64,000 nt of DNA from Rubritepida flocculans DSM 14296. GTDB taxonomy: Bacteria > Pseudomonadota > Alphaproteobacteria > Acetobacterales > Acetobacteraceae. Positions 13,239 through 22,584 of this stretch are shown here, piece after piece. The DNA is taken from positions 1 through 64,000 of the forward strand of contig NZ_AUDH01000011.1 in the NCBI RefSeq assembly GCF_000425365.1, written 5' to 3'. A program made the translations under genes and the position numbers. The notes under the pieces were generated by a model that made no database searches, was not told the DNA's origin, and saw only the letters and a program-made list of their open reading frames with translations. Position 1 is the stretch's first letter, and each line of letters begins with the position of its first letter.

Positions 13239-14009
13239 TCAGCCGCTCTCGCCGGGCAGCGCGAGGGACCGCATGCGCCGGGTCGCCGCGCAGGCGGCGA
13301 AGATGTCCTGCCGCCCCGCCGCGCGCTCGGCGACGCGCGCGAGGGCCGAGAGCCGGCTCGCCCCGAAGGAGGCCGCGCAGCCCGCCAGCGCATGGGCCGC
13401 CGCGCGCGCCGCGGCGTGATCCGCGGCGAGGCAGGCCGCCTCCAGCCGCTGCAGCAGCGCCGGAAGCTCCCGGGCGAAGGCGGCGCGGATCTCGGCGCGC
13501 AGTTCGTCCGGCAGGGCGTCCAGCTCGGCGCGGATGGCCTCGTCCCAGACGGGCAGTTCCTCCGCCCGGCCGATCGCCCGGCCGGCCTCGAGCACCTCGC
13601 GCACCGCCTCGCGCAGCCGCTCGGGGCGGAAGGGCGGGGCCAGCCAGCCCTCCACCCCCTCGCGCAGGAGGCAGGCCCGCTCGAGCGCCGTCCCCGATCC
13701 CGTGAGCGCCAGCACGGGCAGCCCCGCGCCCCCGGCCTGCGGCGCGCGCAGCCGGCGCAGCGCCTCCAGCCCCTCCCCGCCCTCTCTGCCGAGGCCGAGC
13801 AGCAGGGCGTCGAGCCCGCCCTCCTCCGCGGCCAGGATCGCGAGGCCGGATGCGGCGTCGCCCGCGGGCAGGGCCTCGCAGCCGGCCTGCTCCAGCAGGG
13901 AGAGCATCGCCCCGCGGCTGGCGGGGCAGGGATCCAGCAGCAGCAGGCGCGCCGTGCGCTCGGTGCGCCCGGCGCGTTCGATGGCCGCTTCGGGGTCAGC
14001 GAGGAACAT
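13239..14009 (-). CDS. Pseudo-receiver / Hpt two-domain signalling protein
   Basis: A 256-residue protein. Residues about 20-140 have the receiver fold pattern (RLLLLDPCPASRGAMLSLLE start, then LPVLALTGSG). The phospho-acceptor position is Gly (DALLLGLGREGG where receivers have LLLDLxLP), and the conserved Lys is Pro (GWLAPPFRPERL). Residues about 155-250 form a histidine phosphotransfer domain with an intact site, AAHALAGCAASFGA (His near residue 206). It could pass phosphate from one of the nearby hybrid kinases while its receiver serves only for binding. The start ATG at 14009 overlaps the preceding gene by 14 bp. Confidence 0.75.
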   Translation of the reverse strand: MFLADPEAAIERAGRTERTARLLLLDPCPASRGAMLSLLEQAGCEALPAGDAASGLAILAAEEGGLDALLLGLGREGGEGLEALRRLRAPQAGGAGLPVLALTGSGTALERACLLREGVEGWLAPPFRPERLREAVREVLEAGRAIGRAEELPVWDEAIRAELDALPDELRAEIRAAFARELPALLQRLEAACLAADHAAARAAAHALAGCAASFGASRLSALARVAERAAGRQDIFAACAATRRMRSLALPGESG

Positions 14010-14409
14010 CGGAGAGAACTCCCTGAGGGGGATGCCGGGCCGGGCGCGGGGGCGGAGGCGCCCAGGCCGGCGCCGCATCGGCGCGCGCCGGGGCGGCGCG
14101 CCCGGCCTCGAGCACATCGGCCAGAACCCGGCTGAACGCCTCCAGACGGCGCAGCGCCTCCGGCATCCGGGCGGGCCCCAGCGCATGCAGGGCGGCGCTG
14201 TGGCCCGGCACCGGCACGCGCAGCCCCTCCCCGACCCACCCCATGCCGCAGGCCGGCGAAGCCCCTCCGGGCCGCCACCAGCAGGCCCTGCCATCCTCCT
14301 CCCGCCACAACAGGCCGATGGCCAAGCCCGTCGCCGTCTCGGCGGCCTCCAGCAGGGTGCGGATTTGCGTGTTCAGGGCGGCCATGACGGCCTCGCGCGC
14401 CGGGCTCAT
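13996..14409 (-). CDS. Small cytoplasmic protein of unknown function in signalling operon
   Basis: 137 residues, not recognised with confidence. Residues 10-105 look like a compact alpha/beta sensor-type domain: an N-terminal helix (AALNTQIRTLLEAAETATGL), strands around AIGLLWREEDGRACWW, and a helical end (LRRLEAFSRVLADVLEAG). A Pro/Ala-rich tail follows. A GAF- or PAS-like sensor is possible but no diagnostic residue was seen. Its start overlaps the stop of the HD-GYP gene as ATGA, and its stop overlaps the receiver-Hpt gene, so the three are translationally coupled. The ATG at 14385 is an alternative start. Confidence 0.6.
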   Translation of the reverse strand: MSPAREAVMAALNTQIRTLLEAAETATGLAIGLLWREEDGRACWWRPGGASPACGMGWVGEGLRVPVPGHSAALHALGPARMPEALRRLEAFSRVLADVLEAGRAAPARADAAPAWAPPPPRPARHPPQGVLSDVPR

Positions 14410-15161
14410 GCCCAGATGGCCCGGGGTATGCCCGCGAGCACCGCGGCCAGCGCCTCGCCCTCGCCATCCTCCGGCCTCGGGGCGTCGCGCACGGCGCAGG
14501 GGTCGCCGAGGGCCGCCCGCAGCAGCCGCACGGCCTCCGGGTCGAATTGCCGGCCCGAGCAGCGGGCGATCTCCTCCAGCGCCTCCTTCGCCCGGCGCGG
14601 GGCCCGGTAGCGGCGGCCGGGCTCGATCATCGCCACGAAACTGTCCGCCACGGCGGTGAGCCGGCCGATCCAGGGGATCTCCGTCCCGGCGAGCCCGAGC
14701 GGGTAGCCCGCGCCGTCCCAGCGCTCGTGGTGGGTCAGCGCCGCATCGCAGACCGCGCCCGGAAAGCCCAGCGCGCGCAGCAGCGAGGCCCCGGCCTGCG
14801 GGTGGCGCGCCACCTCCTGGCGCTCGGCCGCCTCCAGGGGCCGCTGGCCGTCGAGGATGGCCAGCGGAAGGTTCAGCTTCCCCGCATCGTGCAGCAGCCC
14901 CGCGGCGGCCACCGTCTCGGCGTCGAGGCGGCGGTCGGGATCGAGCCGCCAGGCGGCGAGGAGGATGGTCGCCACGCGCAGCGAATGGTCTGCGGTGGGG
15001 GCGTGATGCCGGCGCAGCGCGTCCACGAGGCGCATCGCGCGGGCGGGAAGCCCCCCCGCCGGCCGCGGCCGCGGCGTGGCGAGCCTGCGCGTCCAGGCGA
15101 AGGGCGGCGGCTCCTCCGCCCCCCTCTCGCCGTCCAGACCGGAAGTGCCGAACCCGTCCAT
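14406..15161 (-). CDS. HD-GYP domain protein, probable c-di-GMP phosphodiesterase
   Basis: 251 residues with an HD-GYP domain over about residues 40-200. Metal-binding HD residues appear in AGLLHDAGKLNLP, then HPQAGASLL, and the GYP signature THHERWDGAGYPLGLAG is intact. A later Asp (TAVADSFVAM) completes the set. These enzymes usually hydrolyse cyclic di-GMP. There is no receiver or other sensor domain on the same chain, so input may come from the two small proteins coupled to it downstream. Start ATG at 15161; the 122 bp upstream contain a direct repeat that may be a regulator site. Confidence 0.85.
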   Translation of the reverse strand: MDGFGTSGLDGERGAEEPPPFAWTRRLATPRPRPAGGLPARAMRLVDALRRHHAPTADHSLRVATILLAAWRLDPDRRLDAETVAAAGLLHDAGKLNLPLAILDGQRPLEAAERQEVARHPQAGASLLRALGFPGAVCDAALTHHERWDGAGYPLGLAGTEIPWIGRLTAVADSFVAMIEPGRRYRAPRRAKEALEEIARCSGRQFDPEAVRLLRAALGDPCAVRDAPRPEDGEGEALAAVLAGIPRAIWA

Positions 15162-15196
15162 GGCCAGAGGATGGGGTGCCGCGCGCGGCAGGGCAC

Positions 15197-15222
15197 GTTC
15201 GGAAATGTGCGGTCTTGTTCGG
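15197..15222. promoter_or_regulatory. Direct repeat upstream of HD-GYP operon
   Basis: Two copies of GTTCGG (15197-15202 and 15217-15222) spaced exactly 20 bp apart, in a relatively AT-rich patch between the OmpR-type regulator gene and the HD-GYP gene. Two-turn direct repeats are typical of OmpR-family binding sites, so autoregulation by the adjacent regulator is possible. Purely inferential. Confidence 0.3.
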
Positions 15223-15283
15223 CGTGCGCGATGCCTGCGGCGCCCAGGCAGGCCGCGTCACTCGCCCCGCGGAGCGGCCCCCG

Positions 15284-15976
15284 TCATCCGATCACCAGCC
15301 GGTAGCCCCGGCCGCGGACGGAGGCGATCTCGATGCGGTCCGCGCTCAACTGCGCGAGCTTCTGGCGCAGCGAGGAGGCGAGCTGATCCACCCCGCGCTG
15401 CTGCGGCAGCAGCCGCCGGCCCAGCACGAGCTCATAGACCTCCTCGCGCTCCACCACCTGGCCGGGGCGGCGCAGCAGAAGCTCCAGCAGCCCCGCCTCG
15501 GCCGCCGTCAGCCGCAGCTCGGGGCCATCCTCCCGGGCGATGCGCAGCCGGGCCGGATCGAGCCGCACCCCGGCCACCACAAGCGGCTCGGGCGGGCCCT
15601 CCGCCGCCCGCTGGGGGCGCGGCTCCCCGCGCCGGAGCAGCGCGCGCACCCGGGCCACCAGCTCGCGCGCCGAGAAGGGCTTGCAGACGAAATCATCCGC
15701 GCCGAGCTCGAGCGCGAGCACGCGGTCCACCTCGTCGCCCTGGCCGCTGACCACCATGATGAAGGGCCCCTGCCCCGCCATCTCGCGCACGAGCTGGAGC
15801 CCCGAGCCGTCGGCGAGGCCGAGATCCACCAGAAGCACGGCCGGCTGCCGCTCGGCGATGGCGCGGCGGGCCTCGGCGAGGTTGGGCGCCTGCCGCGCGG
15901 CCAGCACCTCGCGCTGAAGCGCCCGGGCGATCAGCGTCGCGATGTCCGGCTCATCCTCGACGATCAGGATGTCCAT
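15284..15976 (-). CDS. OmpR-family response regulator
   Basis: 230 residues. The receiver domain (1-118) has an intact acidic pair (IVEDEPD), phospho-acceptor Asp (VLLVDLGLADG), Ser switch (VVSGQG) and Lys (DDFVCKPFSARE). A C-terminal winged-helix DNA-binding domain (about 135-230) has the usual end RIEIASVRGRGYRLVIG. The start overlaps the end of the large hybrid kinase gene by 13 bp, which makes that kinase the likely partner. Among the receivers of this cluster, this one and the two kinase-attached ones keep their phosphorylation sites. Confidence 0.93.
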   Translation of the reverse strand: MDILIVEDEPDIATLIARALQREVLAARQAPNLAEARRAIAERQPAVLLVDLGLADGSGLQLVREMAGQGPFIMVVSGQGDEVDRVLALELGADDFVCKPFSARELVARVRALLRRGEPRPQRAAEGPPEPLVVAGVRLDPARLRIAREDGPELRLTAAEAGLLELLLRRPGQVVEREEVYELVLGRRLLPQQRGVDQLASSLRQKLAQLSADRIEIASVRGRGYRLVIG

Positions 15977-18900
15977 GAGCTTCCCATTGCCGCAGCCTTC
16001 CCCGAAGGGATTACCCCTTCAGGCTCGGCATGGGCAGGGGGAAGATCGCCCGGCCGCGCGCGCCGCCCGGCGAGGAGCTGCAGCCGCCGGGCGAGATCCT
16101 GTCGCCGGAAGGGCTTCTCGAGCAGGCGCAGCCCCTCGGGCAGCGCGCCCGAGGCGTCGTAGAGCTGCGCCGCGAAGCCCGACATCAGGATGGCCGGCAG
16201 CCCCGGCAGCAGGGCCTGCGCCTCGCGCATCACCGCCGCCCCGTCCATGCCGCCGGGCAGCACCACGTCGCTGAGCAGGACATCGGGGCGCAAGCCCCCG
16301 CGCAGCAGGGCAAGCGCCGCCTCGCCCTCGGCGGCGAGGGTCGCGGAATGGCCGAGCTCGCGCAGCATGGCCGCGATCTGCTCGCGCAGCGCCGCCTGGT
16401 CCTCCACCACCAGCACATGCAGGGGCGACAGGGCCTCCGCGGCGGGCGCGTCCGGCTCGGCCGGCGCCGGCTCGGGCAGGGCGGGCGCGGCCTCGCCCGG
16501 CGCCGCGACCGCGGCCGGAAGATGCAGGATGACGCTGGTTCCACGCCCCGGGGCCGTGTCGAGCCCGATGCAGCCGCGCGACTGGCGGACGAAGCCATAG
16601 ACGGTGGCCAGCCCCAGCCCCGAGCCGGCGCCGGGCGGCTTCGTGGTGAAGAAGGGCTCGAAGGCCCGTCGCGCCACCTCCGGGGGCATGCCCTGCCCGT
16701 CATCGGTCACGCTCAGCCGCAGGAACTCGCCCGGGGCGGCCTCGCTGAACTCGGCGAGCGCGGCGGCGTCGAGCGTCTCCGCCTCCAGCTCGATCCGCAG
16801 CGTGCCGCCCGCGGGCATGGCGTCGCGCGCGTTGAGGGCGAGGTTGAGCAGCGCGTTCTCGAGCTGCACGGGGTCCACCAGCGCGGGCGGCAGGCCGGGC
16901 TGCAGCCGCAGCAGCAGCCGCACGCGCTCTCCCAGGCTCTGGCGCAGCAGGGGCAGCAGATCCTCCACCAGCGCGGCCACGTCGGTGGGGACGGGCGAGA
17001 GGGGCTGACGCCGGGCGAAGGCCATCATGCGCCGGATCAGCCCGGCCGCGCGTTCGGCCGCGCCCAGGATCAGCCCGGCGGAATGGGCGAGCGGCGGCTG
17101 GTCCTCCAGCGCCTCGGCCAGCGCCTCGGCGTTGCCGATCACCACGGTCAGCAGGTTGTTGAAGTCGTGCGCCACGCCGCCCGTCAGCGCGCCCAGCGCC
17201 TCCAGCCGCTCGGCGGTGCGGCGGAGCTGCTCGGCCTCGCGCGCGATGGTCACGTCGCGCAGGAACAGGGCGAAGCCGCCGCCGCTGGGCACCAGGCGGA
17301 GCTGCGCATAGCGCCCGATGGGCAGGGCGATCTCGCGCTCCTGCCTGGCGGGGCGGGCCAGGGCGGCGGCCAGGGCCGGCCCCGCCTCGGGCAGCAGCTC
17401 CGGCAGGGCCCGGCCGAGAAGCTGGCGCGCCTCGACGCCGAGCAGCCGGGCCGCGGCGGGGTTGGCGTAGGTGAAGCGCCCGGCCCGGTCCAGGGCGCAG
17501 AACCCGTCATGGATGGTGTCGCAGATGCGCTCCAGCTCCGAGCGCGCCGCCTCGGCCTCGGCGGCGGCCGCCGAGAGGTGGGTAAGCAGCCGCCCGCGCC
17601 GCAGCGCCGCCTCGCCCAGGGCCACCACCTGCTGCAGCGCCGAACGGTCCTCCGCGCCGATGGCCCGGGCGTCGGGGCCGAACACCTCGAGCACCCCGAG
17701 ATACTCCCCCGCATCGTCGCGCAGCGGCAGGCTGAGCCAGGCGGGGGGGTGCGGGCCGGCGTCCCGGCCCTCGGGCGCGCCCGTGGCGGGCTTCTCGCCA
17801 TGGACGATCACATCGCCCCCGTCGCCGGGGATGAGCAGCGCGCGCACCTCCGAGGCCGGCAGCAGCCGCCGCGCGCCGCGCACGATCCGCCGCAGCGCCT
17901 CCTGCGGCTCGATCACGTCCTGCAGCCCGGCGGAGACCTCGACCAGGGTGGAGAGCCGCCGCGCCGATTGGCCCTCCGCCGCCTCGCGCCCCCTCGCCTC
18001 GGCGCGCAGCAGCCGCGCCCCCGCCAGCAGCACGACGCAGAGCAGCGCGGCGAAGGCGACGACCGCGAGGCCATTGCGCGAGAGGCCGAGCCAGAGGGCG
18101 CGGCTCGGCATGGCCACGCGCACCAGCACGGGCAGCTCCGCCACCCTCTGCCAGGCGACCAGGATCCGCCGCCCCTCGGGGCCGCCCGCGACGCTGCTCC
18201 ACCCATGCGCCGGGGCGGCCGCCCAGGAGGAACCCGCCGCGGCCGGCGGCGGCACCCGCCCCGTCGGCACCACCGCGGGATCGCCGGCGTGGAGGGAGCT
18301 GGCGAGCAGGGTTCCATCGAGCCCGAGCAGCTCCGCGCTCCCTTGGCCGAGCGCGGCGATCACCCCCAGCGCATCGGCGATGTAGGCGACGGAGATGTTG
18401 GCGCCGATCACGCCCCGCGCCTCGCCGGCCGGATCGGCGAAGCGCTGCACCAGGGCGAAGATGGGCTTGCCGCGCGCGCCGCCGAGGCGGCCGAGCGCGG
18501 GCGGGGCGATCGCGAGTTCGCCCAGGGGGGCGGCCTGCGCGGCCTGGAAGAAGGGGCGCGCCGCCACGCTCGTGCCCGGCGGCACCTGCGCCGCGGAACT
18601 CGCGATCACCCGTCCCTCCGGGTCGAGAAGCCCGTAGCTGTTCACCACGTGATAATCGTCCGCGGCGCGGCGGAGCAGGGCGGCCATGTGCTTCTGCAGG
18701 GCCTCCCCCGTCGCCGCGGAGGCCAGGAACTCGTCGCGCGCTTCCGCCATGGCGGCGATGGCGGGCCGGAGGGCCCGCTCCATCTGGCGGGCGAGGGTCT
18801 GCGCCGTGCCGGCCGCGAATTCGGCCTGGCGTTCCGTCTGCCGCAGGTCGAGGGCGAGAACCAGCGCGGCCCCCGCCAGCACGGTGACGAGCAGGCACAG

Positions 18901-19011
18901 CGTCACCAGCAGGATGGGGCGACGCAGCCCGTTGCGGGCCGGGGGCGCGGGCGCGGGCGCCAAGCCCGGGGGCGGCGGCGCCCGGCGCGGCGGCGCCCCG
19001 TCAGGCGCCAT
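15964..19011 (-). CDS. Hybrid sensor histidine kinase (periplasmic Cache-like sensor, GAF, PAS, HisKA, ATPase, receiver)
   Basis: 1015 residues. A Pro-rich cytoplasmic N-terminus leads to TM1 (about 32-54), an extracytoplasmic double-Cache-like region (about 60-305) and TM2 (about 313-335). A GAF-like region (355-475) and a PAS domain (492-590) follow. The kinase core has its His near residue 615 (GGVAHDFNNLLTVV), an N-box (LNLALNARDAMP) and a G2 box (GSGLGLATVYG). The C-terminal receiver has its Asp in VLLSDVVLPGG and Lys in LEKPFR. The frame is open to 19329, but ATG 19011 follows the overlapping upstream gene by coupling (11-bp overlap). It probably signals to the OmpR-type regulator encoded next. 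Confidence 0.9.
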   Translation of the reverse strand: MAPDGAPPRRAPPPPGLAPAPAPPARNGLRRPILLVTLCLLVTVLAGAALVLALDLRQTERQAEFAAGTAQTLARQMERALRPAIAAMAEARDEFLASAATGEALQKHMAALLRRAADDYHVVNSYGLLDPEGRVIASSAAQVPPGTSVAARPFFQAAQAAPLGELAIAPPALGRLGGARGKPIFALVQRFADPAGEARGVIGANISVAYIADALGVIAALGQGSAELLGLDGTLLASSLHAGDPAVVPTGRVPPPAAAGSSWAAAPAHGWSSVAGGPEGRRILVAWQRVAELPVLVRVAMPSRALWLGLSRNGLAVVAFAALLCVVLLAGARLLRAEARGREAAEGQSARRLSTLVEVSAGLQDVIEPQEALRRIVRGARRLLPASEVRALLIPGDGGDVIVHGEKPATGAPEGRDAGPHPPAWLSLPLRDDAGEYLGVLEVFGPDARAIGAEDRSALQQVVALGEAALRRGRLLTHLSAAAAEAEAARSELERICDTIHDGFCALDRAGRFTYANPAAARLLGVEARQLLGRALPELLPEAGPALAAALARPARQEREIALPIGRYAQLRLVPSGGGFALFLRDVTIAREAEQLRRTAERLEALGALTGGVAHDFNNLLTVVIGNAEALAEALEDQPPLAHSAGLILGAAERAAGLIRRMMAFARRQPLSPVPTDVAALVEDLLPLLRQSLGERVRLLLRLQPGLPPALVDPVQLENALLNLALNARDAMPAGGTLRIELEAETLDAAALAEFSEAAPGEFLRLSVTDDGQGMPPEVARRAFEPFFTTKPPGAGSGLGLATVYGFVRQSRGCIGLDTAPGRGTSVILHLPAAVAAPGEAAPALPEPAPAEPDAPAAEALSPLHVLVVEDQAALREQIAAMLRELGHSATLAAEGEAALALLRGGLRPDVLLSDVVLPGGMDGAAVMREAQALLPGLPAILMSGFAAQLYDASGALPEGLRLLEKPFRRQDLARRLQLLAGRRARPGDLPPAHAEPEGVIPSGKAAAMGSSWTS

Positions 19012-19450
19012 GGCGCGGGCGCCCGCCGCCGCGCCGCCTTGCGGCCGCGCGGGAGAGGAAGCCGCGCAGCTCGCGCGCATGGAGCGGCAGCGCCAGCGCC
19101 TCGGCATGGTCCACGCCGAGCGGCGGGCCCAGGCGCCGCGCGAGCTCGAGCTCGCTCGCCGGCGCGCCGGAGACGAGCAGCACGCTGGCGCGCGCGCCGC
19201 TGCCGCCCACGAGCAGGAGCGCCTCCGCCGCGCCGCCGGTCCAGCGGCTGATCCCGGTGATGACGGCCATCGCCCCACCCTCCTCCAGAGCCGCGCCCAG
19301 CTCGCCCGGGCGAAGCTGGCGGACCCCATACCCCGCGCCGCGCACCATGACGCCGAGCGGCTGGCAGATCGTCTCGCGGTCGTCGGCGATCAGAACGAGG
19401 CCGCAGGGATCCTCCGGCGCGTCTTCCGCGAGGCGGTCACTCTGGCGCAC
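19001..19450 (-). CDS. Stand-alone pseudo-receiver domain protein
   Basis: 149 residues with the outline of a receiver: LVLIADDRETICQPLGVMVR (first strand with the acidic pair and helix 1), then AVITGIS, then SVLLVSGAPASELELARRLG. The residue aligned with the phospho-acceptor is Thr (about 65), and the conserved Lys position falls in LALPLHARELRG, where no Lys exists. It cannot be a normal phospho-receiver; a binding or inhibitory role is inferred. It starts with GTG at 19450, 48 bp after the GH8 gene, and is coupled to the hybrid kinase downstream. Confidence 0.6.
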   Translation of the reverse strand: MRQSDRLAEDAPEDPCGLVLIADDRETICQPLGVMVRGAGYGVRQLRPGELGAALEEGGAMAVITGISRWTGGAAEALLLVGGSGARASVLLVSGAPASELELARRLGPPLGVDHAEALALPLHARELRGFLSRAAARRRGGGRPRHGA

Positions 19451-19498
19451 GACAGCTCCATCCGAAGGATCGGATTTGTGAGGAAAGGTGAGGAAGGG

Positions 19499-20575
19499 TC
19501 AGGCGTCTTCAAGCGGGAGCCGGCGGGCCGCGGCCGCCTCGCGCGCCAGCAGGCCGAGCGCGGCGGCGTAGTAGTTCTCCGCCGCCTGCGGGCCGCGCAG
19601 CGCCACGGCCCGGCCGCTGCGCAGCCCATGGACGAGGCGGGCGATGCCCAGCGTGCCGCTCGGGGCCGGATAGGGCGCGACCTCGTCGGTGCGCAGGTCG
19701 GTCCAGGCGGGCAGCAGCCGCAGCGCGGGGTCGAGCCAGAAGCGATGCGCGGCGGCGAGCGCGGGGGCGCCGTCCTCCCCGGCCCAGGCGAGGTAGAGAG
19801 GCACGCGCACCGCGTCATAGGCGAAGCGGGGCGGAAAGCCGTGGGCGGGCGCCACCCGCCCGGCGCCGAGCGGCACCCGCACCCAGTCGGCCGGCAGGCC
19901 CCAGCGGCCGAAGCGGCACTGCTCCAGCAGATCGAGCCCGTCGCGCCGCAGCCGCGCCCAGCCCGGCTCGCCGGTCAGCCGCTCGAGCGCGGCGAAGGCG
20001 GGAAACACGTAGTAGGAGGGGTTGACCACCACGGCGTCGCGCTGGGCGAAGCCCTGCACGCCGGGCAGCAGCAGCAGGCGCCCGTTCGCCTCGCGCGTGG
20101 CGAGGCGCAGGATGTCGCGGGCGATGGCCTGGCCGGCCCGCGCGAAGTCGGGCCGGTTCCAGCGCTGCCCGGCCTCGGCGAGCGACCAGGCCAGGAACAG
20201 GTCGCCATCCGTCGCGTTGTTCGGGTCGTGCGGCGCCTCCCCGGGACGGGGCGTGAAGCGCCAGCTCATCAGCGCATCCGAGGGGCGGGCGAGGCGCTGG
20301 CGCGTCCAGGCCCACATGGCCTCGAAGGCCTCGACGTCCCCCGCGCGCTGCGCCAGCAGCATGGCGAAGCCCTGGCCCTCGCTGTGGGAGATGCCGCCGC
20401 GGCCGTCGTCCACCACACGGCCTTCGGCGCGCAGATAGCGGTGGCGGAAGGCGAGCCAGGCCGGGTCCAGCGGCTGCAGGTGGAGGTGGCGCGTGTGTCC
20501 CGGCAGCACCAGGGTGCTGAGCGGCGCCGCCGCCATCCCCGCCAGGGCCGCCCGACGCCCGATCTTCCCCGCCAT
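19499..20575 (-). CDS. Exported glycoside hydrolase family 8 enzyme (BcsZ-like endoglucanase)
   Basis: 358 residues, with a signal sequence at the N-terminus (KIGRRAALAGMAAAPLSTLVL). GH8 hallmarks are GISHSEGQGFAMLLAQRAGD (Glu as general acid), NNATDGDLFLAWSLAEAG, NPSYYVFPAFAALE and FAYDAVRVPLYLAWAG (Asp as base). Family members cut beta-1,4-glucans; BcsZ trims nascent cellulose. No cellulose synthase genes are in the window. Its position inside a kinase/HD-GYP block suggests that exopolysaccharide turnover is part of the regulated output. ATG 20575 has a GGAGGGAGG ribosome binding site and was preferred to GTG 20587. Confidence 0.88.
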   Translation of the reverse strand: MAGKIGRRAALAGMAAAPLSTLVLPGHTRHLHLQPLDPAWLAFRHRYLRAEGRVVDDGRGGISHSEGQGFAMLLAQRAGDVEAFEAMWAWTRQRLARPSDALMSWRFTPRPGEAPHDPNNATDGDLFLAWSLAEAGQRWNRPDFARAGQAIARDILRLATREANGRLLLLPGVQGFAQRDAVVVNPSYYVFPAFAALERLTGEPGWARLRRDGLDLLEQCRFGRWGLPADWVRVPLGAGRVAPAHGFPPRFAYDAVRVPLYLAWAGEDGAPALAAAHRFWLDPALRLLPAWTDLRTDEVAPYPAPSGTLGIARLVHGLRSGRAVALRGPQAAENYYAAALGLLAREAAAARRLPLEDA

Positions 20576-20681
20576 CCCTCCCTCCACACAGGTTGCGGTG
20601 GGAGGTGGTTAACAAATCCATGCCGCCGGACCGTGCCGTTAAGCGTATGGAATCGTTCGGCTCTGGGGCGGATGTGGCGGA

Positions 20682-20723
20682 GCGGCGCGGAAGTGTCGGG
20701 AAGGCTGCGTCCTTCCGCGCCGC
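20682..20723 (-). terminator. Hairpin downstream of the second hybrid kinase gene
   Basis: A perfect 12-bp inverted repeat, GCGGCGCGGAAG at 20682-20693 and CTTCCGCGCCGC at 20712-20723. It lies between the kinase stop (20758) and the GH8 start. The loop contains a second, competing 6-bp stem (GGAAGG / CCTTCC). There is no T-tract, so it may be an attenuator or partial terminator within the operon. Confidence 0.45.
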
Positions 20724-20757
20724 ATTCGGGCGGCGCGCTCCGCCCCGCCCCCCGATC

Positions 20758-22584
20758 CTATCGCCCGAGGGCGAGGGCGGCGTCGCGCCCCTCGACGAGG
20801 GCCAGCAGGCTCTGCCGGTCGATGGGCTTGAGCAGGTGCCCGTCCATGCCCGCGGCGCGGCAGCGCTCGAGCTGTTCCGGCGCCGTATCCGCCGTCACGG
20901 CGTAGATGCGCATGCGCTGTCCCCGCCCCTCCGCCTCGCGGATGCGGCGCGTGGCCTCCACCCCGTCCATGCCGGGCATGTGCACGTCCATCAGCACCAC
21001 ATCCACCCCGCCCCGCGCCGCGGCGGCCACCGCCTCCGCCCCGCCCGAGGCGAGCATCACCTCATGCCCGGCGCTTTCGAGCAGGATGCGCGCGACGAGG
21101 CGGTTGGGCGCGAGGTCGTCCACCACCAGCACGCGGCGGCGCGGGCTGGGCGGAGGGGCGTCCGCCTCCCTCTCCGCCTCCGCAGGGGGCGGGCACTCCG
21201 GCAGAGGGAGCTCGACCCAGAACAGGCTGCCCCGGCCGCCCTCGCCGGCCTCGCAGCCGATGCGCCCGCGCATGGCGGAGGCCAGCGCGGCCGAGATGGC
21301 CAGGCCAAGCCCCCCGCTGCCGAACTCGTTCTCCGGGGAGGGCTCGATGCGGCCGAACTCCCGGAACAGCTCGCCCCGCTTCTCGGGCGGGATGCCGGGG
21401 CCGTTGTCCAGCACCTCGAAGCGCAGCCAGCCTTCCGGCCGCGCGCGATGCAGGCGCAGCCGAACCTCTCCGCCCTCGGGCGTGTGCTTCACGGCATTGT
21501 TGAGGAGGTTGAGCAGGATCTGGCGCAGCCGCGTCGCATCGCCCCGCACCGCGACGGGCAGATCCTCCGCCGCCTCGCCGGAGAGGGCGATGCGCTTGCC
21601 GAGCGCCGCCGGCCGCGCGAGGGCGAGGCAGCTCTCCATGAAGCCGGCCAGCGCGATGGGCCCCTCGCGGAGCTGGAGCTTGCCCGCCTCCACGGTGGCG
21701 AGGTGCAGCACGTCGTTGGCCACATCCAGCAGGTGCTGGCCCGCGCGCTCCAGCGTCACCACCTGCTGGCGCTGCTCCTCGCTCAGCCGGTCGTCGCGCA
21801 CCAGGCTCTGCGCGATGCCGAGCACGCTGTTGAGCGGCGTGCGCAGCTCATGCGTCATGCGCGCCAGGAAGCGGGATTTGGCCTCGCTGGCGTCGGCGGC
21901 GGCGTCGCGGGCGGCGATCAGGCTGCGGCGCGTCCGCGCCTCGGCCCTTTCCCTCTCCATGGCGAGGAAGGCGAAGGCGAGCCCGACGAGGTGCAGCAGG
22001 GATTCGAGGGTGAGGATGGCGAACCAGGGGCCCGAGGGCAGGGCGGCACCCGCCCCGGGCAGGGGCGCCACCCAGGTCAGCGGCAGGCGCGCCGCGTAGA
22101 TCGCGCCATGCACCGCGAGCAGCGCCACCGCGATCCAGCGGCTGGAGAGGGAGCGGTCCTCGGCGCGCCCCAGGGCCAGGGCCCCGGCGAAGCAATAGGC
22201 CGCCAGAATGGTGGCGACGAGCGCCACCCGGGCGTTCAGCGAGGCGTAGAAGGCCGGAACCTGGCAGGCCGCCAGCCACAGCAGCGGGCCCGCCAGCAGC
22301 GCCCAGGGCGGCGTCTCGCGGCCGGCGCTGGCGCGCGCCGCCGACAGCACCAGGCCGTAGCTCAGCAGCACCACCCCATTCGCGACGTCGATGGAGAGCC
22401 GGTCGGGGATCGCGCCGCGCGCCGCGAGGAGCAGGACGCCCAGCGCCGCCAGAAGACAGCCGAGGCCGAAGCGCCGCAGCGCCGCCGCGGAGGGCCCCGC
22501 CCGGCCGACGACCAGGAACAGCAGTCCCAGAAGGGCCGAGGTCGCGCTGCTCGTCAGCAGCAGCGTGGGGACATGGATGGACAA
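20758..22584 (-). CDS. Hybrid histidine kinase with multi-helix membrane sensor
   Basis: 608 residues. The first 210 contain about seven hydrophobic segments (for example SALLGLLFLVVG and WIAVALLAVHGAIYAA), forming a membrane-embedded sensor. The kinase core follows: HisKA with His 245 (ARMTHELRTPLNSV), N-box (LNLLNNAVKHTPEGG), G1 (VLDNGPGIPP) and G2 (GSGGLGLAISAA). The C-terminal receiver (about 480-600) has VLVVDDLAPNR, Asp in VVLMDVHMPGMDG and Lys in HLLKPIDRQ. The apparent start is a TTG at 22584; no ATG lies near the N-terminus. Together with the downstream Hpt protein it could form a branched phosphorelay. Confidence 0.88.
   Translation of the reverse strand: MSIHVPTLLLTSSATSALLGLLFLVVGRAGPSAAALRRFGLGCLLAALGVLLLAARGAIPDRLSIDVANGVVLLSYGLVLSAARASAGRETPPWALLAGPLLWLAACQVPAFYASLNARVALVATILAAYCFAGALALGRAEDRSLSSRWIAVALLAVHGAIYAARLPLTWVAPLPGAGAALPSGPWFAILTLESLLHLVGLAFAFLAMERERAEARTRRSLIAARDAAADASEAKSRFLARMTHELRTPLNSVLGIAQSLVRDDRLSEEQRQQVVTLERAGQHLLDVANDVLHLATVEAGKLQLREGPIALAGFMESCLALARPAALGKRIALSGEAAEDLPVAVRGDATRLRQILLNLLNNAVKHTPEGGEVRLRLHRARPEGWLRFEVLDNGPGIPPEKRGELFREFGRIEPSPENEFGSGGLGLAISAALASAMRGRIGCEAGEGGRGSLFWVELPLPECPPPAEAEREADAPPPSPRRRVLVVDDLAPNRLVARILLESAGHEVMLASGGAEAVAAAARGGVDVVLMDVHMPGMDGVEATRRIREAEGRGQRMRIYAVTADTAPEQLERCRAAGMDGHLLKPIDRQSLLALVEGRDAALALGR

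Follow-up and report, generated by a model that had tools for sequence, protein, structure and literature searches.

What can receiver domains that have lost their phosphorylation site contribute when they are encoded beside apparently intact kinases? The question is raised by a block of eight genes (13239-22584), all on the minus strand, in the window analysed here, that is, the whole stretch of 64,000 nucleotides (positions 1 to 64,000 of contig NZ_AUDH01000011.1) from Rubritepida flocculans DSM 14296, a member of the Acetobacteraceae. Two hybrid histidine kinases (HK1 and HK2) and an OmpR/PhoB-type response regulator are accompanied in this block by a stand-alone receiver (19001-19450) and by a protein that joins a receiver to a histidine phosphotransfer (Hpt) domain (13239-14009), and both of these receivers lack the acceptor aspartate and the conserved lysine. 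We infer, with about an even chance of being right (probability near 0.5), that the stand-alone protein is a trans-acting pseudo-receiver partner of HK2 and that the receiver-Hpt protein is a phosphate shuttle whose receiver serves for docking only. Pseudo-receivers are a known kind of domain, of which the arrangement in the window is a variant. According to a 2025 review (PMC12632262), they make up about 6% of bacterial receivers, the aspartate is lost in 2.0% of sampled Pfam receivers, the mechanisms proposed include binding competition and heterodimers, and how bacterial pseudo-receivers are switched is described as a mystery.

In the stand-alone receiver, the acceptor aspartate is replaced by Gly66 (codon GGG) and the lysine by Leu121, and the acid pair D23-D24 is kept. 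Against the best relative, a receiver in genome G011 that Pfam recognises, the segment AVIT-D-VMMP is aligned to AVIT-G-ISRW; the nearly invariant D and K columns of a 54-row alignment fall on residues 66 and 121, and an alignment of the receivers of the genome itself likewise places the acceptor at Gly66. The first-pass annotation had correctly reported the loss of the aspartate but had read a threonine at the acceptor site. Three alignments rule this out, Thr65 being the preceding residue, and the ordinary G011 receiver also has a threonine there.

Pfam gave no match to the stand-alone protein at an expect value (E) of 1 or below. An AlphaFold model built on the 54-row alignment, with a mean predicted local distance difference test score (pLDDT) of 82.5, has the alternating order of five strands and five helices, with residue 66 at the end of strand 3. 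A Foldseek search with this model returned 253 PDB matches at E<=0.001, and the best 50 listed consist for the most part of response-regulator receivers and include two pilus-assembly proteins. Judged from sequence and predicted fold, the protein qualifies as a receiver despite the silence of Pfam. Its reading frame has the features of a gene: GGAG stands ahead of the GTG start, the gene overlaps the start of HK2 by 11 bases, and the guanine-plus-cytosine (GC) content by codon position is 0.85/0.59/0.91, as for a gene. A start of HK2 at 19329 would leave no stand-alone receiver; it was considered and ruled out, because in the shared stretch the receiver frame has GC values of 0.86/0.62/0.93 and the open extension of HK2 has 0.62/0.93/0.87, a shifted, non-coding pattern.

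The receiver-Hpt protein (256 amino acids, aa) is recognised by Pfam in both halves (Response_reg, PF00072, E 6e-8, 33.2 bits against a cut-off of 30.2; Hpt, PF01627, E 6e-10, 39.7 bits against 24.6). Alignment confirmed what had been read by eye from the letters, namely Gly72 at the acceptor site, loss of the conserved lysine (here Pro125, as Leu121 in the other receiver) and an intact Hpt histidine, His206; the second acid of the pocket is also replaced by proline. The predicted structure (mean pLDDT 82.5, predicted template modelling score 0.61) combines a receiver with a helical four-helix bundle in which His206 lies in the helix 198-214, and the Foldseek matches listed mostly cover the receiver part. 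Both proteins are modelled as receivers in the structure prediction that the first-pass annotation had proposed as a check.

Loss of the aspartate is rare in this genome, in which 34 of the 36 receivers found by Pfam keep it (alignment read by eye; the 36 do not include the stand-alone receiver). One of the two exceptions is the receiver-Hpt protein; the other, at C4:175130-175435 (L303), is the second receiver of a protein that we take to be PleD-like, with leucine at the acceptor and arginine at the lysine site. Hpt matches number six in the genome, five of them above the cut-off.

Relatives of both proteins indicate the direction of change. The stand-alone receiver has matches at E<=0.001 in 17 of 248 other genomes of the family (best 5.5e-11, in G011); two of the 17 loci gave no tblastn match (L010, L012), and in L017, where tblastn landed elsewhere, and L018 the match was not a receiver. 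The remaining 13, read by eye, have the acceptor aspartate in 13/13 and the lysine in 12/12, one match being too short to show the latter. For the receiver-Hpt protein, matches occurred in 133 of the 248 genomes; 29 loci were listed, two of which gave no match, and among the 27 aligned the aspartate is present in 26 (asparagine in one), the lysine in all 27 and the Hpt histidine in 22/22 of those that carry Hpt. Since the relatives keep ordinary residues, the substitutions in both window receivers are derived: the lineage started from ordinary receivers, and decay may have been recent in this genome. Ordinary receivers in orthologues had been named beforehand as a refuting sign of recent decay; such receivers were found in the G011 counterpart and the other relatives, which carries that refutation halfway, yet the window frames are intact and coding. 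Most of the listed receiver-Hpt relatives are tails of hybrid kinases or of long frames that also match HK1, and HK1 itself has no Hpt tail, so the receiver-Hpt gene may be the missing tail of HK1.

In transcription order, the block consists of HK1 (20758-22584, 608 aa, TTG start uncertain), a BcsZ-like endoglucanase of family GH8 (19499-20587), the stand-alone receiver (149 aa), HK2 (15964-19011, 1015 aa), the OmpR-type regulator (15284-15976, 230 aa, Asp51 and lysine present), an HD-GYP protein (14406-15161, 251 aa), a 137-aa protein that belongs to no known family (13996-14409) and the receiver-Hpt protein. The intervening gaps are 170, 48, -11, -13, 122, -4 and -14 bases; judging by these sizes, one unit appears to run from GH8 to OmpR and another from HD-GYP to receiver-Hpt. 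HK1 carries a hydrophobic N-terminal part, HisKA (HELRTPL), HATPase and a receiver with aspartate and lysine, and by Pfam it ends after this receiver without an Hpt domain. HK2 has PAS, HisKA (HDFNNLL), HATPase and a receiver with aspartate and lysine, together with dCache-like and GAF-like parts, both below the Pfam cut-off. The histidine, N-box, receiver aspartate and lysine motifs are present in both. The two hybrid kinases, the canonical regulator, the HD-GYP enzyme and the coupled protein were found as first annotated; the GH8 gene had not been mentioned.

In the mechanism that we favour, the stand-alone receiver would be co-translated with HK2 and would bind it on the surface that normally serves for receiver docking, setting the activity of HK2 or competing with true receivers. 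The receiver of the receiver-Hpt protein could only dock or dimerise, and His206 would carry phosphate from the receiver of HK1, of HK2 or of both to Asp51 of OmpR; the output would be control of GH8 and, via the HD-GYP protein, of cyclic di-GMP (c-di-GMP). The phosphorelay suggested at first remains plausible in outline, given that HK1 has a receiver without Hpt, that an Hpt domain is supplied by 13239-14009 and that the OmpR aspartate is intact. A receiver fold kept without phosphate chemistry, as modelled, fits a binding role; binding to the kinases or an effect on c-di-GMP turnover, as first proposed, is a conjecture.

The wider family places the block in context. The OmpR regulator, whose gene overlaps the end of HK2 by 13 bases, is the anchor of a conserved cluster: it was found in 27 of 396 other genomes of the family at E<=1e-40, in 30 places, 29 of which (G247 left out) form the set of loci used here. 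The window holds a variant of a cluster of GH8, hybrid kinase, OmpR and HD-GYP that several genera of the family share. The order GH8, kinase, OmpR, HD-GYP on one strand occurs in 5/29 loci, all of one genus, g17 (L172, L176, L179, L181, L182), and L175 has kinase, OmpR and HD-GYP on a contig that ends inside the kinase. In seven more loci (L166, L169, L171, L174, L178, L180, L184), GH8 and OmpR are no more than 5.3 kb apart, in part in divergent orientation, and HD-GYP adjoins OmpR also in L171, L173, L174 and L175, so that a related HD-GYP stands beside OmpR in 9/29 overall. The most distant OmpR loci are L185-L188 (40-42% identity) and L183 (42%). A scan of contigs with a generic pattern yielded for OmpR, among the matches listed, OmpR-type proteins of 30-41% identity only; an exact 8-residue pattern from the HK2 sensor part found no relative in a contig scan, a result that excludes near-identical copies only, and neither OmpR nor the stand-alone receiver had a match in searches of plasmids. 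In L171 (10637-11545) and L173 (8699-9655), a PAS-GGDEF protein is encoded beside the OmpR orthologue and HD-GYP, which would place c-di-GMP synthesis and breakdown next to each other.

The two pseudo-receivers do not belong to this conserved core, and neither does HK1. Within 8 kb of OmpR, the 137-aa and receiver-Hpt proteins were matched in 0/29 loci (counting best matches at E<=1e-4, which would hide a weaker match that overlaps). In the six loci where GH8 directly precedes the kinase (L172, L176, L179, L181, L182, L166), no more than 135 bases separate the two, too few to hold a receiver. A stand-alone receiver counterpart at an OmpR locus was seen in G011 only, in ordinary form: a small receiver with aspartate and lysine overlaps by 4 bases a 265-aa kinase with 60% identity to the HK2 core, followed by a second PAS-kinase and the OmpR orthologue (53%), and neither GH8 nor HD-GYP was found in the 14 kb around that locus. 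The second PAS-kinase (L119:7126-8586) has a weak HisKA, no Pfam HATPase and a receiver-like tail without the lysine by inspection. The stand-alone receiver, the 137-aa protein and the receiver-Hpt protein are lineage additions to the core. The pairing of a small receiver with a kinase like HK2 recurs, by sequence, elsewhere: L120 (G076) and L125 (G227) each have an ordinary small receiver whose end lies immediately ahead of a kinase like HK2 (43% and 42% identity), and neither genome is among those with the OmpR orthologue. Among seven loci with small receivers, an AMP-ligase follows the kinase in L120 and adjoins the receiver in L126, a luciferase-like monooxygenase adjoins in L121 and L127, and L122, L124 and L128 have other neighbours; the receivers of L121, L126 and L127 are ordinary ones of about 130-140 aa.

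What becomes of the core when phosphate chemistry is lost can be followed in the eight genomes of g17, and this pattern in relatives tells more than the window alone. Kinase and OmpR receiver are intact in three of them (L172/G386, L175/G293, L176/G361), and the OmpR receiver is damaged in the other five, the acceptor aspartate itself being lost in one. In G269 (L179), the acid pair of OmpR reads E-A and its lysine is replaced by proline, and the kinase homologue (L179:3121-5361) consists of Cache-like, GAF, PAS and receiver parts without a HisKA or HATPase match, the sensor being joined straight to the receiver. The acid pair of OmpR is lost and leucine replaces the lysine in both G239 (L181) and G016 (L182). 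The G239 kinase has no Pfam HisKA and may still work, given its retained histidine and HATPase match; that of G016 has neither HisKA nor HATPase in Pfam, with the histidine changed to arginine and the N-box asparagine to glutamine. In G107 (L180) and G314 (L184), OmpR comes next after GH8, no kinase lying between them, and a short-chain dehydrogenase follows as in the intact loci, with one more predicted gene ahead of it in G314. The OmpR of G107 has E-G in the acid pair, serine for the aspartate and proline for the lysine, and that of G314 has no acid pair and leucine for the lysine. In whole-genome searches (first 650 residues of the kinase, E<=1e-8; HD-GYP, E<=1e-15), kinase and HD-GYP were both found in 6/8 genomes; neither was found in G107 and G314, listed as 99 and 100% complete, where GH8 and OmpR are kept. 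Their joint absence suggests that the two act together.

The OmpR receiver is damaged in 5/5 g17 genomes with a damaged or missing kinase against 0/3 of the others (Fisher 0.018), or in 4/4 against 1/4 when the G239 kinase is counted as intact (0.14), although both tests treat the genomes as independent, which they are not. Two loci run counter to this rule, L168 (G021) and L174 (G393), which have intact receivers and lack a kinase within 8 kb. Two changes, and hence two origins of damage, are required on the OmpR tree and likewise on a tree from the effector half alone; a tree holding the five damaged proteins together was rejected (approximately unbiased test, p 0.031, effector half, run after the first tree was seen). 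A partial case is the OmpR of G384 (L183, genus g4), which has D-A in the acid pair, has lost the threonine site and keeps aspartate and lysine, with no kinase seen over 8 kb; the trees treated it as intact, and its sister there, G359 (L170), is intact with a kinase nearby. Ratios of nonsynonymous to synonymous substitution (dN/dS, counting method, dS up to 0.81) in receiver and effector were 0.31 and 0.03 for G269 against G107, 0.11 and 0.10 for G239 against G314, and 0.56 and 0.30 for G016 against G239; four intact pairs gave 0.13-0.29 in receivers and 0.03-0.32 in effectors. Damaged OmpR receivers are kept, some under relaxed constraint, and the DNA-binding half is kept where the receiver is damaged or the kinase absent. 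One might read the whole cluster as a recurrent exit from phosphate signalling, in which lineages independently dismantle receivers and kinases, keep the regulator and the glucanase and end kinase-free, the window being a separate branch where detached pseudo-receivers control intact kinases by binding; we hold this to be doubtful.

Several findings weigh against the mechanism that we favour. The sensor part of HK2 has no match above 35% identity in the 396 other genomes (best E 1.2e-16, 32%), and within the genus, 20 other genomes gave kinase-core matches only for HK2, of up to 50% identity. For neither pseudo-receiver was an orthologue found that is similar enough for a dN/dS test. The AlphaFold input alignments consisted of ordinary receivers, so that a receiver fold was favoured by the input, and they contained no sequences related to the Hpt half. 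The Hpt domain is not tied to any one kinase, the last three genes may form a transcript of their own, given the 122 bases ahead of HD-GYP, and the joint absence of kinase and HD-GYP rests on two genomes. A rival explanation is neutral decay, in which both receivers would be remnants of kinases that were duplicated or split, their chemistry no longer maintained by selection, with little effect and on their way to being lost. Such an origin would account for a change that is derived and seen in one genome only, for a stand-alone receiver that has diverged beyond recognition by Pfam and for the damaged OmpR pair with a dN/dS of 0.56. It is harder to reconcile with intact frames, a coding GC pattern, a ribosome site, tight overlaps between neighbours and a kept Hpt histidine; the rest of the receiver fold holds in the models, and the other two damaged OmpR pairs gave 0.31 and 0.11. 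We regard neutral decay as unlikely, though a serious competitor.

A further possibility is that the pseudo-receivers are ligand switches, binding for example c-di-GMP, so that HD-GYP turnover would feed back on the kinases. An HD-GYP protein is present in the block, GGDEF proteins adjoin OmpR orthologues in L171 and L173, and Caulobacter ShkA (PMC7010744) offers a precedent of a ligand-binding pseudo-receiver that controls a hybrid kinase in a c-di-GMP context. The ShkA domain, however, lies inside the kinase with known ligand residues, whereas the window has separate genes in which these residues, the beta5-alpha5 tyrosine and a DDR linker, have no visible counterpart by inspection; the ShkA type was not found here, and we judge a ligand switch to be improbable. 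It is more improbable still, to the point of being hardly credible, that the stand-alone receiver is phospho-regulated through another residue such as Thr65 or an acid of the pair D23-D24: these are present, but Thr65 looks inherited, since the ordinary receiver of G011 has it too, and the lysine is lost. A trans-acting partner of HK2 and an Hpt shuttle with a docking-only receiver remain the explanation that we prefer.

Compared with the pseudo-receivers and aspartate-less receivers described in PMC12632262 and PMC4395418, the window shares a receiver fold without aspartate and lysine, and differs in having two such receivers in one block beside intact kinases and an intact regulator, one detached and co-translated with a kinase, the other fused to Hpt. 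The nearest case at operon level in PMC12632262 is CmrRST of Clostridioides difficile, in which a pseudo-receiver protein stands beside an otherwise normal kinase-regulator pair; CmrT belongs to the OmpR family as an atypical response regulator, whereas the pseudo-receiver proteins of the window have no DNA-binding domain. Campylobacter CosS/CosR (PMC3938529) parallels part of g17, some species having no kinase gene and an OmpR-type regulator without the aspartate; g17 differs in losing the aspartate in 1/5 damaged regulators, the others having lost the acid pair or the lysine, in having a kinase without its core and in the absence of HD-GYP together with the kinase, and the window kinases are intact. 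Hybrid kinases that end in receiver-Hpt (BarA/TorS type by NCBIfam) have tails with which 13239-14009 aligns, but the latter is detached and without aspartate and lysine. No title or abstract on this cluster was found in the open literature within the terms searched. The family offers matched states of one locus, namely all parts apparently working, additional receivers without phosphate chemistry next to intact kinases (the window), a kinase core missing or damaged, and no kinase with the DNA-binding half of the regulator kept, and such an orthologous series makes a shift from phosphate control to another form of control testable.

The remaining genes of the block add further detail. The HD-GYP protein carries HDAGK and HHERWDGAGYP and an HD_5 domain (PF13487, 107.5 bits), and is by these motifs a predicted c-di-GMP phosphodiesterase. 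The gene of the 137-aa protein overlaps both neighbours, HD-GYP and receiver-Hpt; no convincing relative was found among 199 other genomes of the family, candidates in 23 of them (E 2.9e-4 to 0.01) lying at scattered places and being taken as chance. The GH8 protein scores 147 bits against a cut-off of 299 for the BcsZ equivalog of NCBIfam and is not assigned to it, and a place in a bcs operon was ruled out, as the two BcsB genes lie on contigs C15 and C3 and the window on C11. The signalling genes thus stand beside that of a predicted cellulose-degrading enzyme, 48 bases upstream of the stand-alone receiver. This enzyme carries the glutamate and aspartate motifs that we presume to be catalytic, and the genome has four GH8 matches in all, this one included.

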